A stretch of DNA of 64,000 bases from Flavihumibacter soli (GTDB lineage Bacteria; Bacteroidota; Bacteroidia; Sphingobacteriales; Sphingobacteriaceae): positions 682,001-746,000 of the forward strand of contig NZ_JAAFZB010000096.1 of NCBI RefSeq assembly GCF_010692725.1, read 5' to 3'. Shown in pieces: positions 31,666 to 62,588 of this stretch. The notes under the pieces were generated by a model, which was given only the letters and a program-made list of their open reading frames with translations, ran no database searches and had not been told where the DNA came from. The translations under genes and the position numbers were made by a program. Each line of letters opens with the position of its first letter. Position 1 is the stretch's first letter.

Positions 31666-31714
31666 ATGTTCAAAATACCAGTTCTTAGGTGCTGGTGTTT
31701 TGAACATTTTTTTT
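31666..31714 (+). terminator. Terminator between the two lyase-like genes
   Basis: A 16-bp stem (ATGTTCAAAATACCAG pairing with CTGGTGTTTTGAACAT, one G-T pair) with a T-run behind it. The second lyase gene must therefore have its own promoter or depend on readthrough. Confidence 0.85.
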
Positions 31715-31864
31715 GCAAATTCAAAATGCATATCCCTTATTTCTTTGTCCACTGCTATTTTTGTCCACTGCCATAAAAATGAATAATTATATGAGCTAGC
31801 ATAACAATTCAACGCTTCAAGCGTTTTTAATTGCACGCGATGTAATCACCTAAATGTCAGCAAT

Positions 31865-35499: not shown

Positions 35500-36810
35500 T
35501 TACCAATTAATTCCGATGTAATTCTTTCTCTTTCGCACTACTTCCGGCAACCGAATCATATCAATGAGATAGGCACCCGATTCGGTTTCTGTCAAAATAT
35601 CCAAATATTCCTTTTCCCGATTATTGATCACTATTACCTCAGAACCTTCAACCATCTCCTCCATATGATTGACCATGAGTCTGGAGAGATGGGGAATATG
35701 ATTATCGATGTAATCCTTATTGGTACCGGTAAGCTTGGAGAGATTGACATTCTTATCATAAATTTTAATTTCAAAACCCTTTCCAAGAAGAGCTTCGATC
35801 ACAGCGACTGCGGGTGAGTTCCGTAAATCATCAGTTCCTTGTTTAAAACTGAGCCCTAGAAATCCCAGTTTCCGCTTACCTAACTGCCTTATCAATGCGA
35901 TCGCTCGATCTATTTGCAACTGATTGGTTTTATCAATACACTGAATTAAAGGAGCTTCAACATATAAGTCATGAGCCAAGGTTTGCAAACCTTTTAAATC
36001 TTTAGGAAGACAAGACCCACCATAAGCAAACCCTGGTTTCAAATAATAGGATGAAATATTAAGCAATTTATCCATACAAAAGATTTCCATAACTTTATGA
36101 GAATCAATCTTTGCTGCTGAACATATATTACCAACTTCGTTTGCGAATGATATTTTTAAAGCATGAAAAGTATTATTTACATATTTCATCAACTCAGCAA
36201 CTTTTAAATCAGTGAAAATAATCTGAGCAGGTAACTGGTCATATAAGCAAGCGACCTGTTCTGCAGCACCTTTATTAAAGGATCCTATTAAAGTAAGGGG
36301 AGGGTGATAATAATCGTATACAGCCGTACCTTCACGAAGAAATTCAGGATTTGATACAATCGCAAAGTCTTTACCCTCTTTTTTACCAGAATGTTTTTCA
36401 ATAATTTTCGCACATTTATCTCCAGTGCCTGGAAGAACTGTCGATCTAATTACGATTATGTGGAAGGTTTCTTTCTTCCGAATCCCCTCTGCTATGTCAT
36501 GAGCTACCTTAAATATATAGGTCAAGTTTAAGTGCCCTGTGCTTGTTGAAGGCGTACCTACAGCAATAATTGACAAGTCGGTTTTTTCGACCGCATATAA
36601 AAAATCAGTGGTTGCAGAAATTGTCCCTTTCAGATGTTCATCCTGAATAATAACATCGATTTCATTTTCAATAATAGTAGGAAGTCCACTATTTATTTGA
36701 CGTACTTTTGTTTCGCTTACATCAACTCCGATCACCGAATGACCGTTTTTAGCCAGACAACCTAAACTAACGCATCCCACGTAACCTAGACCGAAAATAC
36801 TTATGTGCAT
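35500..36810 (-). CDS. Nucleotide-sugar dehydrogenase, GDP-mannose 6-dehydrogenase-like
   Basis: Oxidises a nucleotide sugar to the uronate with two NAD. The 436-residue protein has the Rossmann GLGYVGCVSLGCLAKNGHSV, IAVGTPSTSTGHLN, SNPEFLREGTAV, and the catalytic cysteine near residue 266 in GFAYGGSCLPKDLK. The run FHALKISFANEVGNIC with DSHKVMEIFCMDKLLNIS matches GDP-mannose dehydrogenases of the AlgD type better than UDP-glucose dehydrogenases. The product would be GDP-mannuronate, which fits the lyase and heparinase-like genes in the locus. The gene ends at 35500, directly next to the following start. Confidence 0.85.
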   Translation of the reverse strand: MHISIFGLGYVGCVSLGCLAKNGHSVIGVDVSETKVRQINSGLPTIIENEIDVIIQDEHLKGTISATTDFLYAVEKTDLSIIAVGTPSTSTGHLNLTYIFKVAHDIAEGIRKKETFHIIVIRSTVLPGTGDKCAKIIEKHSGKKEGKDFAIVSNPEFLREGTAVYDYYHPPLTLIGSFNKGAAEQVACLYDQLPAQIIFTDLKVAELMKYVNNTFHALKISFANEVGNICSAAKIDSHKVMEIFCMDKLLNISSYYLKPGFAYGGSCLPKDLKGLQTLAHDLYVEAPLIQCIDKTNQLQIDRAIALIRQLGKRKLGFLGLSFKQGTDDLRNSPAVAVIEALLGKGFEIKIYDKNVNLSKLTGTNKDYIDNHIPHLSRLMVNHMEEMVEGSEVIVINNREKEYLDILTETESGAYLIDMIRLPEVVRKRKNYIGINW

Positions 36811-36816
36811 ATGAAT

Positions 36817-38679
36817 TCAATTTAGTTTTTGATTGAAGAAATGCTTGTACCAAAGCTCCAGGGACAGAATTATAAAGAGCTGCCGTTCGTAATCACACTT
36901 TTTATTCCTATGATAACTTACCATAGTTTTAATAAAATCAATATTCAGATATTGCCTGCTTAGAGAATCCTGGCTTTCTACCAAATCAATCAGCAGCTTT
37001 GACAAATCGGATTTTAGCCATTCATCAATTGGTGTAGAAAATCCACGTTTTTTACGATTTATGATAGAAAGCGGCAGCCAATCTTGAGCAGCTTTTCGAT
37101 GGAGATACTTTCCTACTTTCCCTCTTATTTTTAAATCAATTGGTAAGGTTTCGAGGAAGTTAACCAAATCCAAATCCAGATACGGGACACGATTTTCAAG
37201 AGAGTTCGCCATTGTCAACTTATCATTAAAAAGCAGTAAATTATCAGGCAGCATTGTTCTAGTGTCCAGATACAGCAGTTTCGATAATGAATCAGTTAAA
37301 AACTCAGTCCGTGCAAAATTCTTTTCAAAGAGGAATCTTTGATCCTGCTGATAAGCCGAAAAATAATCGTCCTTATATAATCTCCGCTTTAATTCCGGCG
37401 TGAACAAGGTATATATCCCTATAAATCGATCAAGATTCTCGTTAAATCTCGAGGCATAAAGGCCACGTGCAAGCGTGCCATTTGCAGGGAGAAGCCTAGA
37501 AACCATATTAACTGGCATAAACGGGAGAAACCATTTGTATTTAGAAAGGATTTGTTCGCCTACATATCGCTTATAACCTGCCATGGGTTCATCGGCACCC
37601 TGACCGCTTAAAACAACCTTAACATGTTTGGAAGCTAACTGAGAAACATAAAATAAAGCGGGGATTGTGGGCTCGGCAATCGGCTCTTCTGTATGATAAA
37701 ACGATTTATAAAAGAAATCCAGATACTCCCTTTTTTCAACAAGCACCTCGTAATGCTCTGATTTTATTAATGAGGACGTCTCCCTGGCATCAGCTAATTC
37801 ATTGTAATCGCCATTACCATGAAATCCGATAGTAAAAGTTTTAATAGGTTTATCTGAAATCTCACTCATTAAATGTCCAAGCACCGCCGAATCGATCCCG
37901 CCGCTTAAAAGAAGCCCGACAGGGACATCACTTAACAACTGCCTTTTTACTGCTTTTACAAGTAAAAATTTGTATTGTTCAATTGCATCGGCGTCAGAAA
38001 TCCTTTTAATTACAGGAGAGCTTACCCAGTAAGGTACAATTTCTGTTTCCCCATCTTTCAAACAGTATTTAAGATAATGGGCCGGCTCTAACTTCTTTAT
38101 CCCTTTGATCAGAGTTTGGGGAGCGGGGTTATATCGAAAAGTCAGAAATGAATTTAACGCCGTCAGGTCAAGCTCCTTAGCAAACGCTTCATTATTTAAT
38201 ATAATCTTCAGCTCTGAAGCGAACAGCAACTGATTATTCTTCTTATAGTAATATAATGGTTTAACACCGAAATGGTCTCGTACGAGAAATAATTGATGTT
38301 TGCGCTTGTCTAAAAAAGCAAAGGCAAAAATTCCTATGAAATCCTTTACAGATTCTATTCCAAACTCCCGAAGATAATAAAGTATGGTTTCCGTGTCAGA
38401 GTGTCCTGAGAATTCAATTCCATTTAACTTCCGTCGTAGTTCTAAGTGATTGTAAATCTCGCCGTTGAAAACTATGCAATAGTTTTTGCATTCGCTGAAC
38501 ATAGGCTGATTTCCCGCTGGAGACAAATCGAGAATTGCCAAACGGGTATGTCCAAAAAATATTTTATTTGATTCGACATCTAACTCGATTAGCTCCTGAT
38601 TATCAGGCCCACGATGACTAATACTACAAAGATCCTTGGGCGTTAAAACGCAATTCACTGCACCCGCGACTCCGCACAT
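36817..38679 (-). CDS. Asparagine-synthase-like glutamine amidotransferase, second copy
   Basis: A 620-residue glutamine-hydrolysing enzyme. The N-terminal class II glutaminase domain begins MCGVAGAVN (Cys2 nucleophile), with SHRGPDNQELIE and FNGEIYNHLELR. The C-terminal synthase domain has the PP-loop LLLSGGIDSAVLGHL and SGQGADEPMAGYKRY. In polysaccharide loci such enzymes are thought to amidate a uronic or amino-acid carboxyl instead of making free asparagine. It lies 18 bases behind the heparinase-like gene and 6 bases ahead of the dehydrogenase, so uronate amidation is a plausible reading. Confidence 0.9.
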   Translation of the reverse strand: MCGVAGAVNCVLTPKDLCSISHRGPDNQELIELDVESNKIFFGHTRLAILDLSPAGNQPMFSECKNYCIVFNGEIYNHLELRRKLNGIEFSGHSDTETILYYLREFGIESVKDFIGIFAFAFLDKRKHQLFLVRDHFGVKPLYYYKKNNQLLFASELKIILNNEAFAKELDLTALNSFLTFRYNPAPQTLIKGIKKLEPAHYLKYCLKDGETEIVPYWVSSPVIKRISDADAIEQYKFLLVKAVKRQLLSDVPVGLLLSGGIDSAVLGHLMSEISDKPIKTFTIGFHGNGDYNELADARETSSLIKSEHYEVLVEKREYLDFFYKSFYHTEEPIAEPTIPALFYVSQLASKHVKVVLSGQGADEPMAGYKRYVGEQILSKYKWFLPFMPVNMVSRLLPANGTLARGLYASRFNENLDRFIGIYTLFTPELKRRLYKDDYFSAYQQDQRFLFEKNFARTEFLTDSLSKLLYLDTRTMLPDNLLLFNDKLTMANSLENRVPYLDLDLVNFLETLPIDLKIRGKVGKYLHRKAAQDWLPLSIINRKKRGFSTPIDEWLKSDLSKLLIDLVESQDSLSRQYLNIDFIKTMVSYHRNKKCDYERQLFIILSLELWYKHFFNQKLN

Positions 38680-38697: not shown

Positions 38698-40635
38698 CTA
38701 ATAAATATTAATTACAGTATTTAATTTTAAAGATGAACCTGTCTGCACGGAGCCTAAGCAAACAGGGGATGGAGTCTTTGAATAAAAGGATTCGGAATAC
38801 CAGCCCAAAATTGGGGAGGTCTCGCCTTTATGAATATTCCAGGTCAATTGTCCATCGAGCTTAAGTTGAACTGTGTTTTTAGCGTTCGAACTCAATAAAA
38901 GGGTGTCTCGAAATAGCTGGTATTCTATTTTTGGATGAATATGGAAAGGCATTTTTATTTGCAGCGTCCTATTACTGTTATTAAAGATCTGGTCAGTAAT
39001 AATGAACTGCTTTTTATGTCTGAAAAATTCAACCTTTCTCTGATGATATACATTGTAATTCTTATAGCCATTATGCTCGGCGATAACATAATCGTACTTA
39101 TCCGAAACCCCGAAGTCCTTAATGCGAACGTCATAATGATTCAACCACAATGTGGGTCCAACATATGTCGCCTGACTTTCATTATTAACAGTAATTGTAT
39201 TATGGGCTTTTGTACTCAAGAAATATTGCCGCCATTCCGGATGGGTGTGGTAGCAGTATGTTCCAGGATCAACTAAATATGGCGATCCGTCAACATGCAG
39301 AATGAACGATAAGGCGTCTGAATGTCCATGGGCAGCGATAGCAAGATATCCCAATGGTGCCGCATCAAAGTGAAAAAGTATCTCCTTCTTTGCGTCTTCC
39401 TGCAATCGAAAAATGAAGTGCCCTTCTTCCGAATAGGCCTTCGATGTTTTCAACTCTGAATTAGTATTTAATGATTGAAAAATTCCCTCTCCGTTACTTC
39501 CAAATAAAAGTAAATTTTTTAAATCTACAGTAACATTTGCCTTGCGGAAAAACGAATCCCTAAAATAGATAGCCCCGCTGGTTAACAGGGAATAAAAGGT
39601 ATTTACTTCACTGTGGGAATCCAAATTGAATACTCGGCCATCGTCTTCATCACCATAATTAAGAACTTTGCCATCCACATTTAATAAGTCATCTATATAA
39701 CCAAGAATCTTATAAAATCGGTTATTAAAAACGGAAGAAAATGGGATATTAACTTTTTCGCCAAATACGATGCAGATTAAAAAAAAGTCAGTGATAAACT
39801 GAATATACTTTGCGGTTTCTTCTCTATTGATACCATTCTCCGAATGCTGTAGAACGATCTGCTTTTCCAGACCATTTTTGGAATACTTTAGCCATTTCAC
39901 GGATTCTGGAAATGTCCACTTACAATTCGCGATAAAAAGCCCTGCATATTCGGAGATCAAGTGATTATTAGCAGAAGAATGAAGTGACGGATTGTCAAAA
40001 GAAAACTTACAATGAGCATAAATAGAGGGCCCCCATTTTTTTTCTACAAAATTGTTAAGATCTTCATTACCGTATTTTAACTCATCGATATTTAAAATAT
40101 CCCAGGTTAAAACCCAATTAATAAGCCGAATGTTAACTTCAATATTACTGTACCAATTAATTCCTTTCAAATAAAGATTTTGATCTATCCAGGAAGATAA
40201 TAGAGCGACGATGAGATCTAAGGTTTCTTGCTGCCTATATTTTTGATACTGTAAAGCTAATTTTGGCAAAAACAGCATTCGATTCAACTCCCAGACATGC
40301 TTGGCACTACCGTACTGGCTATTCCGCATATTTATTGATGGGGAGTAATCGTCAGGAAATTTTTTGCCAGAACTTACATCAACACTCCAGTCCCTAATTT
40401 CAGTCGGCTTTAAGGTAATGCCAAAAATCCGGATTGCAGGATCACCTAACACATCCTCTAAATTCTCAGTATAGAGAAGTCTTGCAGCGTGAGTCTTGAA
40501 AAAACCTGGCGTGAACTTTCTGCCAATGTTTCTTTTTAAAATTATGTGTTTACAGATTTGCCAGATACGGAAAATTAAATCTCGAACTGTCAAAGTTTTA
40601 AAACGGTTAACATACCATCTTAATCCACCAGACAT
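38698..40635 (-). CDS. Heparinase II/III-like and alginate-lyase-like protein
   Basis: A 645-residue protein. The N-terminal helical part (about 90-330) resembles the alginate-lyase toroid (WELNRMLFLPKLALQYQKY, LHSSANNHLISEYAGL), and the C-terminal beta part has the heparinase II/III signature (AIAAHGHSDALSFILHVDG, PYLVDPGTYCYH, KAHNTITVNNESQ). No signal peptide is seen, so it is probably cytoplasmic or inner-face. Such genes often sit in EPS loci beside an AsnB gene; their role there is not settled (editing or lyase). The start abuts the stop of the upstream transferase. Confidence 0.85.
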   Translation of the reverse strand: MSGGLRWYVNRFKTLTVRDLIFRIWQICKHIILKRNIGRKFTPGFFKTHAARLLYTENLEDVLGDPAIRIFGITLKPTEIRDWSVDVSSGKKFPDDYSPSINMRNSQYGSAKHVWELNRMLFLPKLALQYQKYRQQETLDLIVALLSSWIDQNLYLKGINWYSNIEVNIRLINWVLTWDILNIDELKYGNEDLNNFVEKKWGPSIYAHCKFSFDNPSLHSSANNHLISEYAGLFIANCKWTFPESVKWLKYSKNGLEKQIVLQHSENGINREETAKYIQFITDFFLICIVFGEKVNIPFSSVFNNRFYKILGYIDDLLNVDGKVLNYGDEDDGRVFNLDSHSEVNTFYSLLTSGAIYFRDSFFRKANVTVDLKNLLLFGSNGEGIFQSLNTNSELKTSKAYSEEGHFIFRLQEDAKKEILFHFDAAPLGYLAIAAHGHSDALSFILHVDGSPYLVDPGTYCYHTHPEWRQYFLSTKAHNTITVNNESQATYVGPTLWLNHYDVRIKDFGVSDKYDYVIAEHNGYKNYNVYHQRKVEFFRHKKQFIITDQIFNNSNRTLQIKMPFHIHPKIEYQLFRDTLLLSSNAKNTVQLKLDGQLTWNIHKGETSPILGWYSESFYSKTPSPVCLGSVQTGSSLKLNTVINIY

Positions 40636-48280: not shown

Positions 48281-49282
48281 TTACAATGTTAAATGCATAG
48301 TTTCTCTAAGCACTCCTCTGGCTCCAAAATGCTCTTTAAAACTAAACAGACCATAATTAGCACTTCGGCCTTCATCTTCATTAGCCATTCCCAGATTGAA
48401 GTATTGAAATCCATTATTACAACCGTATTCAACTATGTGATCGATAAGAGCATGATTCGACATCAGATGGGCATATTCCTTATCAGCCGCTATATATTGT
48501 CCATGAAGAACCCTGTTATTTGCCAGAAACACTATGCAGCCGCCAATAAGCTTATGCCTGTAATATGACCCCAGACAAAGGAATTTTTCTTTCCCAACAT
48601 TTTCAATTAGTCTTTTTATCGATTCATAATCATGAACAGGTTTGACGCCATGTTTCTCTAAAAGACTCCTTTCTAAGAGAATCCAAAGTCCTTTAAGATC
48701 ATTCAATCCATATACAGTTAGGGATTGGGATTTCCTTAAATTTTTAACAACATCAGAATGATATTGCATTCTGGTTTGTCGTATGTCGGCATTTAAAGGA
48801 ATTGCCATTTCAAGTTCCCTGCTTTTTATCTTAAACCCATAAAACCACATAGCATAATTCGTTTCATCGCAAAAATACTCCTGAAATATGCGGAAGGGAT
48901 TTCGAATAATAACCTGGTTGACCTTCTTCTCTCTTGCAAATAAAATAATGAGTCTTACTAACTCAAGTGCAGTTTCTACATTGACATGCTTACTTACTAT
49001 TATACCTCCATAGGTAGATCGTAAATGGGAATGCAGAATTTTTTTGCCATCCTCAACATATAACACTGCTGGAAAAACAGCTACAATTCGATTACCTTTA
49101 AAAAACATCAAAGAGGCATCATCTAGTGAGTTCAAGGAGTTATGATCATAAAATTTCCTTGAGTGAAGAAATGTAGAGTTGATCGCTTCTACCTCGATAA
49201 AGGTATTCCATCGCTCTTTAAGGTCTTCACAAAAGGGTACAGCGATTATTGGCTTGGTAGTTGTCACCGATAAATTTTCCAT
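48281..49282 (-). CDS. GNAT/FemAB-like acyltransferase
   Basis: A 333-residue protein with the double-GNAT layout of FemAB-related and BioF2-like (PF13480-type) proteins: RWNTFIEVEAINSTFLHSR, STYGGIIVSKHVN, RMQYHSDVVKNLRKS, then YRHKLIGGCIVFLANNRVL and FNLGMANEDEGRSA. Relatives add amino acids or acyl groups to cell-wall or surface glycans, or act in exosortase-type EPS loci. The acceptor here is unknown. It lies between an aminotransferase gene and the acyltransferase pseudogene, so an amino-sugar acylation is possible. Confidence 0.75.
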   Translation of the reverse strand: MENLSVTTTKPIIAVPFCEDLKERWNTFIEVEAINSTFLHSRKFYDHNSLNSLDDASLMFFKGNRIVAVFPAVLYVEDGKKILHSHLRSTYGGIIVSKHVNVETALELVRLIILFAREKKVNQVIIRNPFRIFQEYFCDETNYAMWFYGFKIKSRELEMAIPLNADIRQTRMQYHSDVVKNLRKSQSLTVYGLNDLKGLWILLERSLLEKHGVKPVHDYESIKRLIENVGKEKFLCLGSYYRHKLIGGCIVFLANNRVLHGQYIAADKEYAHLMSNHALIDHIVEYGCNNGFQYFNLGMANEDEGRSANYGLFSFKEHFGARGVLRETMHLTL

Positions 49283-49333: not shown

Positions 49334-50437
49334 TTAAGGCTTGAACCGATTAATTGTCGAGACCACCTGATCCAGTTCATAATCCGCTATCACCGGGCTT
49401 ATCGGCAGGCTTAATATTTCATTATGAATTTTATCGGTTAAAGGGAAGTTTAAACAATTTAAGGCACAATAGGCCTTTTGCTTGTGCGGTGGAATAGGAT
49501 AATGTATGATTGTTTGAATGTCATTATCTGAAAGATATTGCTGTAACTTAGTCCGGGACTTAGTCCGTACCACAAATAAATGCCAGACATGACCTTCTTC
49601 ATTAATAGCAGTAGGTAACATAACTTCAGAGTTTAATATGTTTTGTCTGTAAAAATGTGATGCAGCCCGCCTTTTCCTGGTATCCTCATTCAGATATTTG
49701 AGTTTAACATTTAATACCGCTGCTTGTATTTCATCCATACGGCTATTCAAGCCTGCATATTCATTAACATATTTTACCGACGAACCATAATTAGATAGTT
49801 TTCTTACTACATCCGCTAAATTAGGGTCGTCGGTCGTAACGGCCCCTGCATCTCCAAAAGCGCCAAGGTTTTTGCCAGGATAGAAACTAGTTCCCGCTGC
49901 ATCTCCCAAACAACCAGTATATCTGCCATTGTATATAGCGCCTTGCGCCTGGGCATTATCCTCAATTAATTTTAAATTATACTTATTGCAAATAGTTTGA
50001 ATTTTTTCGTTGTAGGCGCATTGCCCGTACAGATGGACAATCATAACAGCCTTTGTTTTTGGCGTTATAGCAGCCTCTATTTTGTCCGCATCAATATTAT
50101 AAGAATCTAATTCTGGTTCCACCAAAACCGGCCTCAACCGATTTTCAGTAATTGCCAGGATGGACGCGATGTAGGTGTTTGCGGGAACGACAACTTCATC
50201 CCCGTACGCCATTATTCCCATTTCAATATACGCTCTCAGGATTAATCGTAATGCATCGAGCCCGTTACCAACGCCGATCGTATGCTTTACTCCGCAAAAA
50301 GCAGAAAAATTATCTTCGAAACTTCTAACTTCATCACCTAATAAAAACCATCCCGAATCAATAACCCGGCCTACTGCTTGCTTAAATTCATCAGCATTCT
50401 TTTGAGTTATCTTTTGTATATCAAGAAATTTTATCAT
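49334..50437 (-). CDS. DegT/DnrJ/EryC1/StrS-type sugar aminotransferase (FdtB-like)
   Basis: A PLP-dependent enzyme that aminates a keto-sugar nucleotide. I start at 50437 (MIKFLDIQK); an ATG two codons earlier (50443) is also possible. Motifs: [65 protein letters not shown] and the PLP lysine Lys189 in [15 protein letters not shown]. The sequence resembles FdtB/QdtB, which make 3-amino-3,6-dideoxy sugars from the product of an FdtA ketoisomerase. An FdtA relic lies 1.4 kb upstream and an acyltransferase relic 1.1 kb downstream. Confidence 0.92.
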
Positions 50438-50469
50438 GGTCATCAGATGCGTTTCGCGACTTAAATTTT

Positions 50470-51857: not shown

Positions 51858-52157
51858 TTACGTGAAAATTGGGCTATGAGCCTTTGTAAACGTTGAGTCT
51901 TTAGATGCACTAATAATACAGACCCTGATGAGAAATAGATAATTCCCTCCAGGTTCCCAACTTAATGTTTCGTTCATATTTCGGCAATTGAGGCTAATAG
52001 TCGCGGCAACTTTTGATTGTTGGAGTTCCGACTGGGCATGACTTCTTCTCTTTTCACCGCTGGGAGTATCATATAAATAATAAACGCTTTTCACGCTAAG
52101 TGGAACCTCCCTATTCGCTACGGCGGCGATATTGCCCGAAATGATGATTCTCCTCAA
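51858..52157 (-). pseudogene. Decayed FdtA/WxcM-like cupin gene
   Basis: The open frame begins like an FdtA/WxcM cupin: SGNIAAVANREVPLSVKSVY, then YLYDTPSGEKRRSHAQSELQ, which parallels YLYDIPAGESRGAHAHKE of the intact copy at 61148. After that the frame stops resembling the family, while the expected pieces appear in the other two frames of the same strand: TWREL near 51955 and YFSSGSVLLV near 51935, parallel to NFSSGSICLVL. So frame changes have destroyed the C-terminal half, and the second active-site histidine (HAH) is also replaced by HAQ. Confidence 0.8.
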
Positions 52158-54612: not shown

Positions 54613-55380
54613 TCAATTACTAGTTATAACAATAGCCACTATCGAGAGAACAGAGAGGAATATTCCCAAAATCTGATAGGTGTTGGAGACTGAGGAATAT
54701 TTAGCTTTACCAGGCTGTATATAAAGCAAATCATTATTTTTGAGATAAAAATAAGGAGACTTAAAGATATCTTTGGATGTCAGATCAATGGGTATATATT
54801 CCCGTTGACTATCTCGCTCTCGTATTAGCCACAAATTATTCCTGTCCGCAGTAACGTTTAAATCACCAGCTAAGGTAACTGCTTCCGGTAAGGTGATCCG
54901 TTCATTTTCCACATTATAGACGCCAGGTTTACCGACATCTCCCATCACAGAAACTTTAAAGTTTAAGATCCGAACATTTACTATAGGCTCTTTTAAATAC
55001 TTCTGCAGTTTTTGTTTTATCTGGTCACGTAATTCGGTAGTACTTAACCCTGCCACCTTAAAAGTTCCTAATAATGGAATCTCTATAGCTCCATTGGTGT
55101 CGACCTGGTAACCCAGCGACTGGCCCTGTGTATTGCCATTACTTGCAAAATTGACGTTAAAAAGCGCTGAAGCCTCCGAACTTAAGCTGCTTATATTTAT
55201 CCCCAAGATATCGTCATTCTGAATCGTGACTGCCGTAAAATTTTCTATATTTTCCTTGAACGGGCGGGAATGATCCAGATTCTGAAAATAAAGAAGTTCT
55301 CTATATGAACCACAGGATGTCAACAATAGGAACAAAGTAAGCACAAAAGAATACGATAGATAAATTTGTAATATTCTCAT
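54613..55380 (-). CDS. wza: Polysaccharide export outer membrane lipoprotein (Wza-like)
   Basis: A 255-residue protein with a lipobox LLTSCGSY. The poly-export domain (FTAVTIQNDDILGINISSLS) and an SLBB-like domain (VSVMGDVGKPGVYNVENERI, TLPEAVTLAGDLN) follow, with DLLYIQPGKAKYS and a single C-terminal membrane helix (ILGIFLSVLSIVAIVITS). The C-terminal helix is common in Bacteroidota Wza proteins. With Wzc it forms the export channel across the envelope. Confidence 0.93.
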   Translation of the reverse strand: MRILQIYLSYSFVLTLFLLLTSCGSYRELLYFQNLDHSRPFKENIENFTAVTIQNDDILGINISSLSSEASALFNVNFASNGNTQGQSLGYQVDTNGAIEIPLLGTFKVAGLSTTELRDQIKQKLQKYLKEPIVNVRILNFKVSVMGDVGKPGVYNVENERITLPEAVTLAGDLNVTADRNNLWLIRERDSQREYIPIDLTSKDIFKSPYFYLKNNDLLYIQPGKAKYSSVSNTYQILGIFLSVLSIVAIVITSN

Positions 55381-55589: not shown

Positions 55590-56372
55590 TTAAACGTAAA
55601 GTCTTCCCTCTTTTGAAACCGCCCATTCATCGAAGTTTTGTTTCTCCCAGGGGAGGCCCTTATCGTAATTATAAGGCCAGGGATAGTGTGATCCACTCTT
55701 CTCTTTGGATAAAATAAAATTGAGGTTACAAATCTTAACACCAGGGTTCCCGGAATGCAATTCAAAATCCCCAACATTCTTGTTTATTACTGAATTAGCC
55801 CCAACCAAACTCTGTTTTCCAATTTTTACACCTGGTAGAATCACAGATGCAGCAGCTATCTGAGAAAAGTCGCCAACAGAGACACCTACTAAATAGTTTG
55901 AAGGAGGATGAGGGTCATTTGCAAAAACCACGAATGGATAGATAAAAACAAAATTGCCAAATATACATTTGGCGGAAACTTGCACATGACTATTGAGTCT
56001 GCAATAGTCACCAAAAACGGCATTGCCCTGGATATCTGACAAGGTTCCTACCACACATCTCTTTCCGAATACTGTGTTTTCTCTGATAGAAACCATGTTA
56101 CCTGTTTGAAAATATTCGCCAAACTGGCTTCCCGCATATAAAATACTGCCACTCCGTACTAATGAGTTAGCTCCGATAAGAGTCTGAGGGTTTTCGTAAT
56201 TTTCATTATTGTAGGAATCATCAGATGGTTCACCTATAATGCAATTCTCACAAATAATTGAATTATCGCCAATCACTACATTGTCATGTATAAATGCATT
56301 CTGGCCAATGCGTACATTGTTACCAATTCTGGCAGATTTACTAACTGAAAATTTTCCTTGAAACCGTTGCAT
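55590..56372 (-). CDS. Hexapeptide-repeat acyltransferase
   Basis: A 260-residue left-handed beta-helix protein. Repeats of the [LIV]-G-x4 type run from about residue 10 to 205 (ARIGNNVRIGQNAFIHDNVV, ENTVFGKRCVVGTLSDIQGN, VILPGVKIGKQSLVGANSVI). The C-terminal 50 residues (HYPWPYNYDKGLPW) are an extra tail. It resembles nucleotide-sugar N-acyltransferases of the VioB/WlbB class. It lies 10 bases behind the AMP-ligase gene and is a natural candidate for the acyl-transfer step of the ACP module. Confidence 0.88.
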   Translation of the reverse strand: MQRFQGKFSVSKSARIGNNVRIGQNAFIHDNVVIGDNSIICENCIIGEPSDDSYNNENYENPQTLIGANSLVRSGSILYAGSQFGEYFQTGNMVSIRENTVFGKRCVVGTLSDIQGNAVFGDYCRLNSHVQVSAKCIFGNFVFIYPFVVFANDPHPPSNYLVGVSVGDFSQIAAASVILPGVKIGKQSLVGANSVINKNVGDFELHSGNPGVKICNLNFILSKEKSGSHYPWPYNYDKGLPWEKQNFDEWAVSKEGRLYV

Positions 56373-56382
56373 GCTGGAACTT

Positions 56383-57855
56383 CTATCGACCTACCGAAAC
56401 ATTTTTAATTTTCTTTCCTGACGTATTTACATTAAGTGAATTTTCGAAGCAGATCACCTGAGGAATTTTAAAAGATGAAAGATTTTTGTTGCAGGCTTTG
56501 AGAATCTCGTCCTTGGCATTTAGTTCATCCGACCCCGCTTTAAGTACTACACTTGCTTTTATCCCTTCGCCTAATATTTCATCATAAATACCCTCAACGG
56601 TACAATCTACTGTTTGCTGAACAGTCAATATAACTTCTTCGATTTCCTTCGGACTTACACGTCGGCCTCCTACCTTAATAATTTCCTTTTTCCGACCCAC
56701 CAGGAATATAAATCCATCTTCGTCTCTCATCGCCAGGTCTCCGGTCATTAGCCACCCATTCATCAGTACTTCCCCGGTTGCATCAGGATCGCCGTAATAG
56801 CCTTTCATTATATTATCACCCTTTGCAGCTATTTCCCCCACCTCTCCGACTTTTACCTCACAGAGTTGGTCATCTACAATAGCCAAAGTCACACCTGGTA
56901 TTTCTTTGCCTATTGACCCCAATTTTGCATGCAACATCTCAGATGGTAAATAAGCAAGCCGCGCTGTAGCTTCCGTCTGGCCGTACATAACAACAAATGC
57001 TATATCCGGGAATGCTTCCTTAAACTCTTTAATAAAAACATCGTGAAGCTTCCCTCCTGCCTGAGTAACATATCTCAGATGTGGAAAATCAGTTTTAGTA
57101 AACGTTAGAAATTTTCTTAACAAAATTTGGAAATGACTAGGCACTCCTGCAAAGCCTGTACAATTGAAATTCTTCAAGTCCTTAATAACTGATGCCAGAA
57201 AAATAAAGTTATTAATTAGAACAAGTGATCCGCCAACCTTCAAATGGGTATGAAGTAAGGATAATCCGTAACAATAATGGAATGGCAGCACCACACCCAT
57301 AGTATCGGTGGCGGTAAGGTTCAGGTATTTAACAATGGATTCGGTGTTGCTGGTTAAATTTAAATGACTAAGCATCACTCCTTTCGGGCGATCTGTTGAT
57401 CCTGATGTGAATAGTACTAATGCTGTCCGGTCATTATCAAAATTATCATTGAAAAGATCCTCCGGTAGATCCTGAATTGCCAATAGATTATCGACGAATG
57501 AGTTTTGAATAAAGTGAATTTCGGGATTTTTTATGAGCTGGGTCTTATCTTCCACAAATACCGTTTTGCATCCCGTGCTATTCACTATATAGTCAAAATT
57601 AGATTGCTCTATTGAGGGACTTATAGGAATACAAGTATTTCCTGATTTAAGGATTGCCAGGTAGGTGACAACAAAAAATACAGAGTTCTGGCTCACTAAT
57701 ATGATATTCTGCCTTTCGCCTACATTGATTTTTAAATAGGCCGCTATCTTTAAACTAGCTATAAAAAGTTGATTGAAAGAAATTCCAGCTGAACCTAGAA
57801 CAAAGTCTTTGGACAAATTTTTAGAATCGCTGAAAAAAAAATCGAACGCATTCAT
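56383..57855 (-). CDS. AMP-forming acyl ligase (ANL superfamily)
   Basis: A 490-residue adenylating enzyme. Motifs in order: VLFTSGSTDRPKGVMLSH (P-loop near 150; the usual Gly after SGST is Asp), VVMYGQTEATARL, LMTGDLAMRDEDGFIFLVGR, KKEIIKVGGRRVSPKEIE, and the catalytic C-terminal lysine in NTSGKKIKN. It would activate a carboxylic acid as the adenylate and load it onto CoA or the ACP encoded three genes upstream. It lies 3 bases behind the NAD-synthase-like gene. The acid is not predictable from sequence. Confidence 0.9.
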   Translation of the reverse strand: MNAFDFFFSDSKNLSKDFVLGSAGISFNQLFIASLKIAAYLKINVGERQNIILVSQNSVFFVVTYLAILKSGNTCIPISPSIEQSNFDYIVNSTGCKTVFVEDKTQLIKNPEIHFIQNSFVDNLLAIQDLPEDLFNDNFDNDRTALVLFTSGSTDRPKGVMLSHLNLTSNTESIVKYLNLTATDTMGVVLPFHYCYGLSLLHTHLKVGGSLVLINNFIFLASVIKDLKNFNCTGFAGVPSHFQILLRKFLTFTKTDFPHLRYVTQAGGKLHDVFIKEFKEAFPDIAFVVMYGQTEATARLAYLPSEMLHAKLGSIGKEIPGVTLAIVDDQLCEVKVGEVGEIAAKGDNIMKGYYGDPDATGEVLMNGWLMTGDLAMRDEDGFIFLVGRKKEIIKVGGRRVSPKEIEEVILTVQQTVDCTVEGIYDEILGEGIKASVVLKAGSDELNAKDEILKACNKNLSSFKIPQVICFENSLNVNTSGKKIKNVSVGR

Positions 57856-57858
57856 AAC

Positions 57859-58851
57859 TTACATGTTATGATCATAAAATATGGGGGGCATTCTTAAGTA
57901 ATCAGTAGTTTTTCTCTTACGTTCAAAACTGTTATAGATGTTTCTAATCTCGTCCGTCGACTTATCCAGTTCATGGGCAAGTTCTTCAGGCGGACATTTA
58001 TTTTCCCAGCCATGCCAGATCAGATCCATAGTTTCAAACGGCAACTGATAAAAAAATTCTTCTTGCGTTTGCTCGGCCGTATAAGTATCTGTAGTAGGAG
58101 TTCTCTGAATAATCTCGTCCGGTATTCCCAGAAATTCCGCCAGTTGATATACCTGGGTTTTGTACAAACCTCCAATAGGCATAACATCCGCGCCTCCATC
58201 ACCATATTTGACAAAAAAACCCTGGTCAACTTCCGCCTTATTAGGCGTTCCGATTACCGCGTAATGAAGTCTTTCCGCATGATAATACAGCATTGACATT
58301 CGGCTTCGTTGCTTAAAATTAGTTGATGCTACAATTTGCAAGTATTCACTGACGGGAAGGAGTTTACTGTGCTTTTTTCCATCGGCTGAAATTATCATTA
58401 CGGAAAATACAGATGGTATTGCTTTCCCAATATTTTGATTAATTACGATCTTAGCTTTATCTGTCGCCGGATTGAAAGAGGGAAATACTCTTGAGATTGC
58501 CTCATCACGGCGTTTATAACAACCGAACCCTTGTAGCGCTTCAGTAAGATCCTCAACAAGAGCCTTAACACCAAATGTTTTTGCCAATTCATTGCCTAAT
58601 CTTAGACTATCAGGACTCGAATCCCTTTCCGGAAGCATTATTGCTACAACATTTTTAGCTCCAAAGGCCCTCACAGCCAATGCTAATGTTACCGACGAAT
58701 CAATTCCTCCACTTATTCCGACTACAGCACCTCTACGATTGAGTTGATAGATCACATCGTTGCGGAGTTTGTCAGTAAGTTTATCGCAAAGACTTTCAAC
58801 ATCTTCAATGCGTAATCTTTCCAGTGAATGAAGTTTGGTTTTTGATTCCAT
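57859..58851 (-). CDS. NAD-synthase-like ATP-pyrophosphatase (NadE family)
   Basis: A 330-residue ammonia-dependent enzyme of the N-type ATP pyrophosphatase fold. The PP-loop is SGGIDSS at residues 47-53, with a GTPNKAE motif and VDQGFFVKYGDGGADVMPIG, as in NadE. It lacks a glutaminase domain. The C-terminal tail (RKRKTTDYLRMPP) is of the kind seen in NadE-like proteins of secondary loci. Location between an AsnB gene and an acyl ligase gene suggests a pathway role, using ammonia to amidate an activated acid, though ordinary NAD synthesis cannot be excluded. Confidence 0.82.
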   Translation of the reverse strand: MESKTKLHSLERLRIEDVESLCDKLTDKLRNDVIYQLNRRGAVVGISGGIDSSVTLALAVRAFGAKNVVAIMLPERDSSPDSLRLGNELAKTFGVKALVEDLTEALQGFGCYKRRDEAISRVFPSFNPATDKAKIVINQNIGKAIPSVFSVMIISADGKKHSKLLPVSEYLQIVASTNFKQRSRMSMLYYHAERLHYAVIGTPNKAEVDQGFFVKYGDGGADVMPIGGLYKTQVYQLAEFLGIPDEIIQRTPTTDTYTAEQTQEEFFYQLPFETMDLIWHGWENKCPPEELAHELDKSTDEIRNIYNSFERKRKTTDYLRMPPIFYDHNM

Positions 58852-58873
58852 AATGCTTGTTTTTGAATTTTGG

Positions 58874-60853
58874 TTAATTATCCCGGATTACGCATATATC
58901 AAAATCGACTAAATCTGACTCCAACAAACTCCCCTTTGATTTTTTGGTAAAAAGGCTATGCAAAATTTGCGTCGATAAAATTCCGGTTATTGCCATATTG
59001 TCAATTTCCGATACCGTCTTCCCTGAGCATATCTTCCCAAGAAGCCTGGACACCGAATCAGGTTCAAATATTCCGGCAGAATTAACTTGCTCCCGGCTAA
59101 GCATTTCATGAACATAGGAAGGAGCCTTGTTTGAGAAAAAGCTTTCCAAGACAGGAGCCCGATAAGGCTGCTTTGTCCTGTTTATAATAGGCTCCGGAAG
59201 CTTTCCACTCATCATTTTTTTTAAGAGAACCTTTTCGTTCAACCCCTGCAACTTATGCTCCGAAGATAGTTTCATACAAAATTCTATTACCCGGTAATCC
59301 AAAAAGGGGTATCTGCCTTCGACTGAGTTCGCCATAGCCATGCGATCGCCCTGTGAAGACAATAAATAGCCTGACATAAAAAGATTTACTTCAAGCCATT
59401 GGGCACGCTTCAACAACTTAATGTCCTGAAATTTCACCCTGACCTTATCCTCCATTTCGCGGATCGGGTCATACGAAGAAATTGCCTGTTTAAGATCCTC
59501 CGAAAAGTAGTTTTTAATCCTTGAGGTATTATTCCATCTTAACAAGTGTGAATAGACGGGCGAGGCGGTTTCGTTTAATTTATATCCATAAAACATCTTC
59601 AATGCTGTCATATTAGCATTGTCCATTTGAGGTAAATAAGAATACAGTTTTTTCAACAGCAAGGGTCTCAACTTAGATGCGGGTTGCCTGGACCAGAATT
59701 CCCGGATTATTGTCTCTTTGAATATATCATACCCCCCTAACAACTCATCTGCTCCTTCCCCGGTTAGCACAACCTTAAACTTGTTACCATTGACCACTTT
59801 CGATAATAAATACATCGGGCATGGAGCTGTTCTTAACAGTGGGATTTCTGAATGCCATACAACATCAGAAAAAGTATTAGCAATTTCATTCGAACAACAT
59901 TTCATATAGGTATGATCTGTTTTCAAATAGTTGACTGCGATACTTTGATATGCCGTCTCATCAAATTCCTTATCTGCAAAACCAATAGAAAATGTTCGAA
60001 GATTGTCGGGCGAAATATCCCGGATTAAAGAAGTAATAACACTTGAATCAATTCCGCCGCTTAAGTAGGCCCCTACAGGAACATCAGCCCGTAGTCTGAT
60101 TCTTACCGCGTCCGTTAAAAGATCTCTAAACTCCGGAATTATAGATGAAACACTTCTTTTATCAATTCCTTCGGAGGGAATCAATGGAAGTTCCCAGTAG
60201 CATGTTGCTAAAATTCCTTTGGAGTTTACAGTTAAGAAATGCCCTGGTGGCACTTCGAAGATATTTTCGAATGCTGTTTTTGGACTAATCGTTGTCCACA
60301 GAGTAAAGACTTGTGATAACGATTCCGGACAAATTTTAAATTCAACTCCCGGAAACTCTGACAAAGCTTTTATTTCGGAACCAAAAACGAAAAAGCCATT
60401 GATTCTTGTATAAAATATTGGCCGGATGCCGACCCGGTCCCTGGCAATAAATAATTCGTTTTTCTTTTCATCCCAAATAGCGATCGCGAACTGGCCGTTA
60501 AGTTTTTGTAAAAATCCGGAGCCATACTCCTCATATAAGTGCAGAATTACTTCGGTATCACTATTTGTTTTAAAAACGTGACCTTTTCGTTGCAATTCCC
60601 GCCTCAGTTCAACATAATTAAATATCTCCCCGTTAAAAACGATCCATAAAGAGTCATCCTGATTTGACAAAGGCATTCCGCCGCTCGCTACATCGATAAT
60701 ACTAAGTCGAACACTACCAATACCAACCGCTTTGTTCAAATAAATGCCACTTTGATCGGGACCTCTATGCTTAATCCTTGTCAGCATTCGCTTTAAGACA
60801 CTGATAGACGCTTCCTTTTCAAGCCGTGGATAAAATCCCGCAATTCCGCACAT
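58874..60853 (-). CDS. Asparagine-synthase-like glutamine amidotransferase, first copy
   Basis: A 659-residue enzyme with the N-terminal glutaminase domain MCGIAGFYP (Cys2), KHRGPDQSGIYL and FNGEIFNYVELR, and the synthase domain with PP-loop GAYLSGGIDSSVITSLI and LTGEGADELLGGYDIF. It is paralogous to, but clearly different from, the copy at 36817. It starts one base after the ACP stop codon, a spacing that argues for a joint function with the ACP. The possible acceptor is an ACP-bound acid or a sugar. Confidence 0.9.
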   Translation of the reverse strand: MCGIAGFYPRLEKEASISVLKRMLTRIKHRGPDQSGIYLNKAVGIGSVRLSIIDVASGGMPLSNQDDSLWIVFNGEIFNYVELRRELQRKGHVFKTNSDTEVILHLYEEYGSGFLQKLNGQFAIAIWDEKKNELFIARDRVGIRPIFYTRINGFFVFGSEIKALSEFPGVEFKICPESLSQVFTLWTTISPKTAFENIFEVPPGHFLTVNSKGILATCYWELPLIPSEGIDKRSVSSIIPEFRDLLTDAVRIRLRADVPVGAYLSGGIDSSVITSLIRDISPDNLRTFSIGFADKEFDETAYQSIAVNYLKTDHTYMKCCSNEIANTFSDVVWHSEIPLLRTAPCPMYLLSKVVNGNKFKVVLTGEGADELLGGYDIFKETIIREFWSRQPASKLRPLLLKKLYSYLPQMDNANMTALKMFYGYKLNETASPVYSHLLRWNNTSRIKNYFSEDLKQAISSYDPIREMEDKVRVKFQDIKLLKRAQWLEVNLFMSGYLLSSQGDRMAMANSVEGRYPFLDYRVIEFCMKLSSEHKLQGLNEKVLLKKMMSGKLPEPIINRTKQPYRAPVLESFFSNKAPSYVHEMLSREQVNSAGIFEPDSVSRLLGKICSGKTVSEIDNMAITGILSTQILHSLFTKKSKGSLLESDLVDFDICVIRDN

Positions 60854-60854
60854 A

Positions 60855-61130
60855 TTACAAGGGCATTTGCTCGGCTGGCAAGGACTTTTTCTCTTCTAAC
60901 TTTCCGGCAACGAAGGACGCTATGGCGTTGACCGATTCGAAATTTTCTTTGATCAGTTCCTGATCATTCACTACTACTTTAAATTCATCATTAAGGAACT
61001 GCACCAAATAAAGTAATCCCATAGAATCCAAAAGCCCTTGATCAAAAATTAAAGTATCATCCGAAAGTTTATCCGGATCGCACATGGATTCCTCAATAAG
61101 GTATTGTCTTACTTTTTCAAAGATTTTCAT
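60855..61130 (-). CDS. Acyl carrier protein
   Basis: A 91-residue acidic helical protein with the phosphopantetheine attachment serine Ser36 in GLLDSMGLLYLV and the downstream VNDQELIKENFESVNAI helix. It is a dedicated ACP rather than the fatty-acid AcpP, which has a different surrounding and a DSL motif. It carries the acid activated by the AMP ligase, I infer. It lies 17 bases behind the second cupin gene and overlaps no other gene. Confidence 0.9.
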   Translation of the reverse strand: MKIFEKVRQYLIEESMCDPDKLSDDTLIFDQGLLDSMGLLYLVQFLNDEFKVVVNDQELIKENFESVNAIASFVAGKLEEKKSLPAEQMPL

Positions 61131-61147
61131 AATAGCTCATTTAAATT

Positions 61148-61597
61148 TCAATTTGTACTTCCCGATAAACTGGATATCCCTACCATTAAGTTCATTGCCA
61201 GAAATTCATCATAATCCCTTATGTAGTCATTCGGGTCATAACTATGTGAAGTTAGAACCAGGCAAATGGAACCAGATGAAAAATTAATTTCAGATGCCCA
61301 TATCCCTGGTGGAATATGAAGACCGTAAAACGGCCGATTAAGCTGAATGATTCGCTCAGTCCTACCATCATTCAATAGCACCTCAAAACTACCGCTAGCT
61401 GCAACTAAAAATTGATGACATTCCTTATGAGCATGAGCTCCCCTTGATTCTCCAGCAGGAATATCGTATAAATAAAAAACTCTCTTGATATCAAATGGTA
61501 GTTCCTGATTACAGGTTAACGATGTGATATTTCCAGACCGATTTTTTATTTGCTTGAGCCTGATGATGTCGCAATCATACACTGCGGTTGCTTCCAT
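61148..61597 (-). CDS. FdtA/WxcM-like cupin (sugar 3,4-ketoisomerase family), second of tandem
   Basis: A 149-residue cupin. The active-site region reads YLYDIPAGESRGAHAHKE, with the histidine pair His55 and His57 kept as in the FdtA/QdtA ketoisomerases, followed by LNRPFYGLHIPPGIW, NFSSGSICLVL and DPNDYIRDYDEFL. Characterised relatives turn TDP-4-keto-6-deoxyglucose into the 3-keto isomer. It overlaps the first cupin gene by 23 bases. The catalytic residues are present, so it is likely active. Confidence 0.9.
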   Translation of the reverse strand: MEATAVYDCDIIRLKQIKNRSGNITSLTCNQELPFDIKRVFYLYDIPAGESRGAHAHKECHQFLVAASGSFEVLLNDGRTERIIQLNRPFYGLHIPPGIWASEINFSSGSICLVLTSHSYDPNDYIRDYDEFLAMNLMVGISSLSGSTN

Positions 61598-62036
61598 TTT
61601 TATTCGCTTTTAAGGTTAAAAAATGATCATAATCGCGTATATAGTCGTTTTCGTCATATACAGTTGAGGAAAGAACTAAGGCTAAAGAATTTGTAGAAAA
61701 ATTTTCCAACTTTCTCCAAAGCATTTCCGGGACGTACAATCCGTAATAGGATCGGTTCAATGGAATTTTCCTTTCACTGAAACCATCATTTAGGCACACA
61801 TCAAAGCTTCCCGATAACGCTACTATCAACTCACAATTATTCTTAAAAGCATGACTCCCTCGTATCTCGCCTCCGGGCACATCATATATCCAGTAAGTCC
61901 TTTCAATTTTGAAGGGTACTGATGCGTTTTCCTCGAGAAAGGATAAATTTCCGCGAGGATCCAGGATCTTAGGAAAATCAATGATTTTCACATTATCAAG
62001 CGTTGATCTACGAATTAAAGGATTGACGATCTCCAT
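61575..62036 (-). CDS. FdtA/WxcM-like cupin, first of tandem, with altered active site
   Basis: A 153-residue paralogue of the next gene. The domain is intact (YWIYDVPGGEIRGSHAFKNN, LNRSYYGLYVPEMLW, DENDYIRDYDHFL), but the motif HAHKE is changed to HAFKN, so the second histidine is a phenylalanine (Phe64; His62 is kept). This may leave it with a binding or different isomerase role, or make it an inactive partner in a heterodimer with the neighbouring copy. It is the first gene behind the antiterminator. Confidence 0.88.
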   Translation of the reverse strand: MEIVNPLIRRSTLDNVKIIDFPKILDPRGNLSFLEENASVPFKIERTYWIYDVPGGEIRGSHAFKNNCELIVALSGSFDVCLNDGFSERKIPLNRSYYGLYVPEMLWRKLENFSTNSLALVLSSTVYDENDYIRDYDHFLTLKANKNGSNRSV

Positions 62037-62096: not shown

Positions 62097-62588
62097 TTAA
62101 ATTACGATTACATCCTGCCTTTCAATTTCCGCCGTTAAGAAATAGCCTAAAGAAGGCAAATTGACCTTTACAGTATTTCGCTTAACTGAAATAATGATTC
62201 CTTGCATTTGCATTAATGGCCCACTAATAATTTTAACACGTTCGTTTACAAACAATTGCGCTTTTTCAAGGCGCACATTCCTGTGCGTATTTAAAAATTC
62301 CTTAATCAAATCGATCTCTTCATCCCGGATCACGGCCGGTTTGCCCAGCCAATACACCAGATTTAATATTCCGTCTACCTTTCGTAAGGCAGCCTGCTCT
62401 TTTGGGCTAACCCTTACAAATACATACGAGGTAAAAAGTGGTTCCTCAACAGTCTTTTTCCGGTCGCTCCACTGCTTTAAAACCTTATTTAGCGGGCAAT
62501 AATTTTCAATTCCCTCCCTGGTTAAAAGCTCAGCCACTTTTTTTTCCCATCGAGGCCTTGTGTAAACAGCGAACCATTTCAATTCCAT
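62097..62588 (-). CDS. NusG/RfaH-like transcription antiterminator (UpxY type)
   Basis: A 163-residue protein with the NusG N-terminal domain: LKWFAVYTRPRWEKKVAELL, YCPLNKVLKQWSDRKK, EEPLFTSYVFVRVSPKEQ. A short KOW-like C-terminal part follows (KIISGPLMQMQGIIISVKRN). In Bacteroides, UpxY proteins are the first genes of capsule operons and bind the 5' leader to let polymerase read through. As the first gene of this locus, it presumably does the same here. The ~420 bases upstream would contain the leader. Confidence 0.9.
   Translation of the reverse strand: MELKWFAVYTRPRWEKKVAELLTREGIENYCPLNKVLKQWSDRKKTVEEPLFTSYVFVRVSPKEQAALRKVDGILNLVYWLGKPAVIRDEEIDLIKEFLNTHRNVRLEKAQLFVNERVKIISGPLMQMQGIIISVKRNTVKVNLPSLGYFLTAEIERQDVIVI

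Follow-up and report, generated by a model that had tools for sequence, protein, structure and literature searches.

Acyl carrier protein, AsnB, NadE-like and AMP-forming ligase genes as a co-conserved cassette within a polysaccharide locus of Flavihumibacter soli

Introduction

Do seven tightly packed minus-strand genes in a polysaccharide locus of Flavihumibacter soli work as one decoration module, or do they combine two gene sets? The genes lie at 55590–62036 of a 64,000-nucleotide stretch (the window; positions 682,001 to 746,000 of contig NZ_JAAFZB010000096.1, assembly GCF_010692725.1) of a 4.44-Mb genome, and encode, in this order, two cupins, an acyl carrier protein (ACP), an AsnB-type glutamine amidotransferase, a NadE-like protein, an AMP-forming acyl ligase and a hexapeptide acyltransferase. 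The original prediction took them for a single undescribed module in which an acid is activated, held on the ACP, possibly amidated and moved to an amino sugar of the polymer. Here we report that the ACP, AsnB, NadE-like and ligase genes are a co-conserved unit, separate from the amino-sugar genes that stand on either side of them.

Results

Four of the seven genes are co-conserved

All seven open reading frames were confirmed in the predicted order and place, and the Pfam matches of their products all exceed the respective curated cut-offs, in agreement with the families proposed for them. The two cupin genes overlap by 23 bases, and the following gaps are of 17 (second cupin to ACP), 1 (ACP to AsnB), 22 (AsnB to NadE-like), 3 (NadE-like to ligase) and 10 bases (ligase to hexapeptide enzyme). 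The run stands 60 bases behind the UpxY antiterminator gene, and wza, then wzc, follow 209 bases downstream.

Loci from other genomes were collected with the NadE-like gene as bait. Sixty-nine loci were scanned with profiles, 10 of them wider stretches from genomes of the phylum and 59 from a one-genome-per-species collection; 38 extend 5 kb or more to either side of the NadE-like gene (fully flanked loci, 34 of which reach 8.9 kb or more in both directions), and the 31 with shorter flanks were excluded. Within 6 kb of the NadE-like gene, AsnB is found in 37, the ACP in 36, the ligase in 35 and all four genes in 33 of the 38 fully flanked loci, counts that are not independent of the profiles because these were derived from the same loci. 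The zone from 6 to 9.1 kb, taken as an internal control, holds AsnB in one locus, the ACP in one and the ligase in none. Strict scores, applied to 77 loci among which are the window and seven chosen plasmid loci, detect all four genes in 52, with a median span of 4.85 kb; since they share one strand in 52/52 and yet occur in nine orders, the cassette appears to be kept as a unit although its order varies. FdtA-type cupins accompany it in just one fully flanked locus (L056; the window not counted). The expected co-occurrence of all seven families thus holds for the ACP, AsnB, NadE-like and ligase genes and fails for the cupins, and seven-gene co-conservation was rejected.

Among 296 genomes of the phylum, the NadE-like gene was found at E 1e-30 in 11, that of F. 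soli included. Ligase relatives at E 1e-80 occur in five genomes and AsnB relatives at E 1e-150 in nine, all of them among these 11, and outside F. soli they adjoin the NadE-like gene by coordinates in 4/4 (ligase) and 7/8 cases (AsnB). At the strict threshold no ligase is seen in six of these 11, which is partly due to ligases of the farther kind, described below.

Similarity of the cupins and hexapeptide enzyme to a known amino-sugar pathway

QdtABC and FdtABC constitute the known route to dTDP-3-acylamino-3,6-dideoxyhexoses. The PDB matches of each cupin (12 per cupin) include structures of FdtA, QdtA and WlaRA (5tpv), and the WlaRA/WlaRB pair of Campylobacter is a precedent for two ketoisomerases in tandem. 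The QdtC match covers the hexapeptide enzyme over nearly its whole length. A DegT aminotransferase gene lies at 49334, 5 kb downstream of the run in the same locus; its product resembles QdtB, and no NCBIfam aminotransferase model reaches its cut-off with it. RmlB, for the supply of dTDP-4-keto-6-deoxyglucose, is encoded outside the window (C96:1080931; TIGR01181 471 bits, cut-off 365). By sequence similarity, the cupins, DegT 49334 and the hexapeptide enzyme match the QdtA/B/C (FdtA/B/C) pathway, and one member of this set lies outside the run. The reading of the seven genes as one module is not supported.

In L056 the cassette shares one run with two cupins, DegT and a hexapeptide enzyme, and this last is of the 7s43/WxcM type, a different subfamily from the QdtC type of the window. 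Because cupins rarely join the cassette and the L056 subfamily differs, the hexapeptide enzyme of the window may be an ordinary N-acetyltransferase for which use of the ACP is not required. Between wzc and an M28 gene sits what is left of a third FdtA-type cupin (51858–52157, minus strand, 39 bits), so that the amino-sugar genes have seemingly been rearranged.

The NadE-like protein is a diverged relative of NAD synthetase

As modelled by AlphaFold2 (predicted local distance difference test score, pLDDT, 92), the NadE-like protein has the NadE fold: Foldseek retrieves 2e18 at E 8.1e-19, with a TM-score of 0.84 by target and 0.66 by query. Two-part profile matches point to an extra stretch around residues 110–165. 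The PP-loop residues S47, G48, G49, D51 and S52 are invariant among 38 aligned proteins. NAD synthetases carry a P(S/T)A.L...D segment, which presumably contacts the substrate and is present in 2e18, 3p52, 3fiu, 1xng and the canonical NadE of F. soli; the NadE-like family lacks it and has instead P252, T253, D255, T256, Q263 and F266, invariant in 64/64 sequences. Among NadE relatives a shift of substrate has an example in 3fiu, which is titled a nicotinamide mononucleotide synthetase.

Another NadE is encoded on a different contig of the F. soli genome (G000:C91:162924, a 551-residue frame), and another NAD_synthase-domain gene was found in 18/18 other cassette genomes tested, 16 of which score above 230 bits; in the remaining two (G109 and G496) the second match, of 102 and 92 bits, covers part of the profile and lies in reading frames 647 and 708 residues long. 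Since such a gene is present in 19/19 genomes, the NadE-like gene is a paralogue of NAD synthetase.

The ACP and AsnB

The phosphopantetheine (Ppant) serine proposed for the ACP, Ser36, is invariant in 42/42 aligned ACPs, as are G32 and D35. The ACP of the window scores below the cut-offs of all NCBIfam ACP models, the best being OlsHI ACP (47.6 bits, cut-off 130), followed by AmcB (32.9, cut-off 80) and DltC (28.7, cut-off 68). The genome has one phosphopantetheinyl transferase-domain match. AsnB begins with MCG, as do 41 of 52 aligned homologs, and its PP-loop SGGIDSS at 265 has S265, G266, G267, D269 and S270 invariant in 52/52. In two loci (L019 and L051) the cassette AsnB lies in pieces across frames, from sequencing errors or decay. 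According to passages of two published studies, AsnB homologs have been hypothesised to amidate malonyl-ACP (PMC7756379), and a uronamide of Porphyromonas gingivalis requires the AsnB-type WbpS, with support from a mutant (PMC7468200).

Two ligase types around a conserved pair

Ligases of 57 loci were typed by the residue in the column of Cys195 of the window ligase, a column that we take to be that of the Asp which holds the amino group in the adenylation domains of non-ribosomal peptide synthetases (NRPSs). Twenty of the 77 loci failed a three-gene score filter and are outside the typed set (L042 among them), and L089 was excluded from typing and correlations, its ligase being split over two frames. 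Type A, placed by MAFFT, has Cys (32/57); in type B the residue is Asp (18), Gly (5), Thr (1) or Ser (1), and the FD motif of one type B ligase aligns with gramicidin synthetase A. In three type B ligases the best model is TIGR03098, at 441–472 bits and below the cut-off of 592, and in one of these three the best PDB match is an NRPS (284 bits). A split by identity also gives 32 and 25 ligases, L042 being among the 25 farther ones, and is a different set from the residue-typed 57; Cys195 is present in all 32 ligases that are at least 42% identical to that of the window. Arg299 does not separate the ligase types because it is present in 32/32 closer and 25/25 farther ligases. The best PDB matches of the window ligase are oxalate-CoA ligase (202 bits) and malonyl-CoA synthetase (160 bits). 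These and Arg299, which follows the TE motif, hint at a dicarboxylate specificity, which we did not adopt.

The mean identity between types is 30% for the ligase, 49% for the NadE-like protein and 46% for AsnB, as compared with 51, 59 and 50% within type A and 46, 49 and 47% within type B. Because the ligases differ between the types and the NadE-like proteins and AsnBs differ no more than within type B, the ligase seems, from sequence identity, to have been exchanged around a kept AsnB–NadE pair. Over all 57 loci the distances correlate with rho 0.85 for NadE-like and AsnB (largest of 200 permutations, 0.24), 0.37 for NadE-like and ligase, and 0.33 for AsnB and ligase; within types the values are 0.65–0.74 for the correlations with the ligase and 0.75–0.78 for NadE-like and AsnB. 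Correlation and Fisher values ignore phylogenetic dependence and are descriptive.

Distribution across bacteria

The one-genome-per-species collection holds at least 59 loci with the NadE-like gene, titled Bacteroidota, Chloroflexota, Zixibacteria, Acidobacteria, Ignavibacteria, Deferribacteres, Microvirga and further taxa; the labels may be wrong for the many loci that come from metagenome bins. Cassette loci also occur in Alphaproteobacteria, and among plasmids 117 records carry the NadE-like gene, 76 of them from Sinorhizobium. One NadE-like match is on the plasmid of S. meliloti Rm41, and L096 is the copy of Shinella zoogloeoides ATCC 19623. Within the family of F. soli, the cassette was found in 1 of 201 genomes, its own, and the nearest relatives are in other groups (69% in Ancylomarina). 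These suggest horizontal transfer, and the cassette is probably an accessory island that has been transferred. Within 6 kb, Wzc is found in 13 and Wza in 9 of the 38 fully flanked loci, and in the copies of Roseateles sp. XES5 and Shinella zoogloeoides glycosyltransferases or an exopolysaccharide (EPS) transporter are encoded no more than about 5 kb from asnB. In L089 (pSymB of S. meliloti ml56; 10394–11965 and 23403–24936) there is no annotated gene for the split ligase. GNAT-like and HemK-like genes of the cassette kind are found about 10 kb away from it.

Accessory genes and candidate acyltransferases

HemK/PrmC-like methyltransferases are found in 11/25 type B and 0/32 type A loci, with the NPPY motif in 9 of 10 proteins inspected. 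Such a partner fits an amide-making cassette, since an amide nitrogen is a natural target of methylation; that of L066 passes the cut-off for the N5-glutamine methyltransferase of release factors (TIGR03534 216.5 bits, cut-off 199), and may for this reason be a second ordinary PrmC. An MBOAT protein is encoded within 6 kb in 7 of the 38 fully flanked loci, and occurs with both ligase types (6/32 A, 3/25 B). The sole one tested, in L048, scores best with DltB (170.9 bits, cut-off 375). Of nine copies from Alphaproteobacteria or Roseateles, seven (L075, L089, L091–L094 and L096, but not L090 and L095) are accompanied by a GNAT-like protein whose Pfam matches are all sub-threshold, as is L023.

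A Pfam scan covered 98 same-strand neighbours of 128 listed, 9 of 137 having been dropped earlier as too long. Glycosyltransferases are commonest (family 2 in nine, group 1 in eight); Acetyltransf_6 is matched by three, FemAB by three and Acyl_transf_3 by two. A simple hexapeptide pattern, which proved too strict, gave three loci including the window, and the QdtC profile gave nine loci besides the window, eight of them at 19–31 bits. In the window, the GNAT/FemAB-like protein encoded beside DegT (48281–49282), which may transfer an aminoacyl or acyl group, is in our view at least as good a candidate as the hexapeptide enzyme for taking the cargo of the ACP.

Other features of the locus

The glycan locus extends about 25 kb further; its Wzx, Wzy and glycosyltransferases were read from the sequence, of which part was scanned. 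It also holds a phosphoglycosyl transferase at 28078 and a nucleotide-sugar dehydrogenase (TIGR03026). A second AsnB (36817–38679; TIGR01536 438 bits) is encoded directly upstream of this dehydrogenase (the two together at 35500–38679, minus strand), and they are likely a uronamide pair, as with WbpS. Amid the minus-strand genes stand two plus-strand ones (29746–33193), each for a polysaccharide lyase PF14099 with malectin domains, which possibly degrade the polymer. A Heparinase II/III-like protein (38698–40635, minus strand) is encoded among genes read as glycosyltransferases, and a protein with a HipA-like kinase domain (PF20613; 26749–27540, minus strand) just downstream of the glycan locus. 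Coordinates and profile scores of the main features are given in Table 1.

Table 1. Features of the seven-gene run and its surroundings in the window
Feature	Position	Strand	Evidence
UpxY antiterminator	62097..62588	-	NF033644 149.6 bits, cut-off 100
First cupin, FdtA/QdtA-type 3,4-ketoisomerase	61575..62036	-	PF05523 168.9 bits (cut-off 23); PDB 5tpu 113.9, 2pa7 113.2 bits
Second cupin, FdtA/QdtA-type 3,4-ketoisomerase	61148..61597	-	PF05523 174.9 bits (cut-off 23); PDB 5tpu 120.1, QdtA 4zu7 105.2 bits
ACP, Ppant Ser36	60855..61130	-	PF00550 (PP-binding) 29.3 bits
AsnB-type glutamine amidotransferase	58874..60853	-	Asn_synthase 294.9 bits; TIGR01536 506, cut-off 267
NadE-like PP-loop amide synthetase without glutaminase domain	57859..58851	-	NAD_synthase 175.1 bits; NF002048 435.5, cut-off 313
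AMP-forming acyl ligase, type A (Cys195 at A4 position)	56383..57855	-	PF00501 224.9 bits
Hexapeptide N-acyltransferase, QdtC-like	55590..56372	-	Hexapep 80.2 bits; PDB 3fs8 QdtC 199.1 bits, E 8.6e-58, residues 10-251
Wza-like polysaccharide export protein	54613..55380	-	PF02563 63.1 bits
DegT/QdtB-type sugar aminotransferase	49334..50443	-	PDB 5u1z 462.8 bits; QdtB 3frk 368.9 bits
GNAT/FemAB-like transferase beside DegT	48281..49282	-	PF13480 28.4 bits (cut-off 22); PF02388 19.9 (below cut-off 24)

Discussion

On balance, we lean towards two modules in one run: an amino-sugar pathway and an autonomous cassette for amidation on a carrier protein. The cupins, DegT 49334, the QdtC-like enzyme and RmlB would provide a dTDP-3-acylamino-3,6-dideoxyhexose for the polymer. 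Family membership and linkage suggest that the ligase activates a carboxylic acid by adenylation and attaches it to the Ppant of ACP Ser36. AsnB, with nitrogen from glutamine, would then convert the free carboxylate of the held acid, its presumed target, into a carboxamide, and the NadE-like enzyme may carry out a further ATP-using, ammonia-dependent step on the same substrate (a second amide, an amidine or another ammonia ligation). A genome-specific acyltransferase (MBOAT, GNAT or FemAB-like, perhaps hexapeptide) would move the amidated group to a glycan or other acceptor. We infer this order of steps from the families involved. The cassette probably builds an amide-bearing group, in many genomes near sugar-polymer genes.

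An alternative is that the seven genes are one decoration module after all, in which the QdtC-like enzyme transfers the ACP-bound, amidated acyl group to the 3-amino position of the Qui3N or Fuc3N made by the cupins and DegT. The single run from cupins through ACP, AsnB, NadE-like and ligase to hexapeptide enzyme speaks for it, as do the run of L056, the eight further loci with weak QdtC-profile matches at 1.9–5.8 kb from the NadE-like gene, and the hexapeptide family itself, in which enzymes of the LpxA/LpxD type take acyl-ACP. Against these stand the rarity of FdtA cupins beside the cassette (1/38) and the different hexapeptide subfamilies of the window and L056, as if each had arrived with its own amino-sugar pathway; a single module is therefore possible but somewhat unlikely. 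It is less likely still that the cassette, in analogy to the pathway for N-acetylglutaminylglutamine amide, yields an amide, a small metabolite that is diffusible or linked to a lipid, and came to lie in glycan loci only by frequent co-transfer. The window AsnB does score 348.6 bits with TIGR03104 (below its cut-off of 570), and the operon beside minCDE on S. meliloti pSymB, with three similar plasmid copies, lies in a stretch that has no annotated glycan genes; against this reading stand the nearby MBOAT (7/38), Wzc (13/38) and Wza (9/38) genes and the glycosyltransferases or EPS transporter near the Roseateles sp. XES5 and Shinella zoogloeoides copies.

Two further readings concern the ammonia-handling enzymes. 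AsnB and the NadE-like protein might act on sugar carboxylates, turning uronic acids into uronamides independently of the ACP and ligase. The nucleotide-sugar dehydrogenase in the same locus and the WbpS precedent in P. gingivalis (from part of PMC7468200) are compatible with this, but the second AsnB, which adjoins that dehydrogenase, is the better candidate for such a task, and the four cassette genes stand together in 33/38 loci, and do so as well where such a dehydrogenase is not annotated; we consider this reading improbable. Even more improbable is that the NadE-like gene is just one more NAD synthetase gene that travels with the rest, as its fold and its NF002048 score above cut-off could be taken to say. 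Every one of the 19 genomes tested, F. soli included, has another NAD_synthase-domain gene, on which ground a housekeeping role was rejected as the principal explanation; moreover, residues invariant in 64/64 stand in place of the canonical P(S/T)A.L...D segment, and the gene is linked with ACP, AsnB and ligase across phyla.

Several observations weigh against two modules with an autonomous amidation cassette. Five of the 38 fully flanked loci are without one or two of the cassette genes (L018, L024, L036, L053 and L084), one of which (L024, genome G243) has its AsnB relative on another contig. Within ligase types the AsnB distances correlate with those of the ligase (0.71 and 0.74) nearly as well as with those of the NadE-like protein (0.78 and 0.75), so that the overall closeness of AsnB and NadE-like mainly reflects the two ligase types. 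K215, G217, D218 and D222 of the NadE-like protein are invariant in 64/64 and are shared in part by NAD synthetases, which leaves room for a nucleotide-like substrate. In S. meliloti pSymB, asnB-ACP-ligase-nadE lies next to minCDE, and the feature table of that stretch, which is incomplete, lists no glycan gene; the plasmid copies of Shinella WSD5-1, Mesorhizobium and Rhizobium are likewise without annotated glycan genes. In 28 of the 38 fully flanked loci no acyltransferase is found with the MBOAT, GNAT and QdtC models, and the hexapeptide enzyme of the window resembles QdtC, whose acyl donor is acetyl-CoA.

A bolder and more doubtful extension of the two-module reading is a cross-phylum system of amidation on the ACP, in which a neofunctionalised NadE paralogue and AsnB act in turn, with exchangeable ligases to pick the acid and acyltransferases to pick the acceptor; by analogy with other PP-loop enzymes, the acid might become an amide and then a second amide, or the amide an amidine or nitrile. 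If the amidation cassette is real, its four genes are a marker for an unrecorded modification of glycans (or a metabolite) in several phyla, and proteins of this kind annotated as 'NAD(+) synthase, PRK00876' are misnamed and have another job. Tractable carriers include Sinorhizobium meliloti, and the two ligase types around the kept AsnB–NadE pair offer a direct way to test the role of the pair.

The original prediction held the seven-gene combination to be undescribed. For the cupins and hexapeptide enzyme the pathway is known; a search by gene-family names in the open-access literature, which leaves most subscription journals outside its coverage, gave no description of the four-gene cassette. 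Its parts are of known kinds, and their combination with a diverged NAD synthetase is unrecorded as far as searched. The exosortase A (XrtA) EPS system also pairs an AMP ligase with an AsnB-type enzyme (TIGR03098 and TIGR03108). It differs in that the window ligase scores 269.8 bits with the former (cut-off 592) and the window AsnB 428.2 with the latter (cut-off 817), and in that a NadE-like partner is not part of the two models. As predicted, exosortase PF09721 has no match in the F. soli genome, and with its ligase, amidotransferase and exosortase features all failing this system was rejected. The Dlt system of D-alanylation similarly joins an AMP ligase and a carrier protein, to which some cassette loci add MBOAT and some add proteins that match no Pfam family and look SGNH-like on inspection by eye; AsnB and NadE-like proteins are, to our knowledge, foreign to it. 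It differs in DltC (NF003464, with the window ACP below its cut-off) and DltB (with the MBOAT of L048 below its cut-off), and membership of the window was rejected on the DltC score and the lack of an MBOAT profile match in the window.

Glutarimide polyketides start from malonamyl units (SmdG/SmdH, ChxC/ChxD, LtmC/LtmD), for which an AsnB homolog is hypothesised, in a passage of PMC7756379, to amidate a dicarboxylate held on an ACP. According to the same passage, which does not name a NadE-like protein, these starters differ in being loaded by an acyltransferase and not an AMP ligase, and in serving a polyketide and not a glycan. The ACP/AsnB gene pair of such starter systems is present here, and amidation on the ACP is predicted for the cassette by analogy. 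The Porphyromonas Wbp/Vim linking-sugar pathway differs in that the term 'acyl carrier' is absent from PMC7468200, where a ligase and a NadE-like protein were not searched for; as given in part of that study, it likewise decorates a surface sugar with amino-acyl and uronamide groups and involves an AsnB (WbpS), and its VimA is related to N-acetyltransferases and FemAB. As regards the amino-sugar genes, the locus differs from QdtABC and FdtABC in its duplicate cupin and in a last-step acyl donor that is presumed, and shares with them both cupins, DegT, the hexapeptide enzyme and RmlB.

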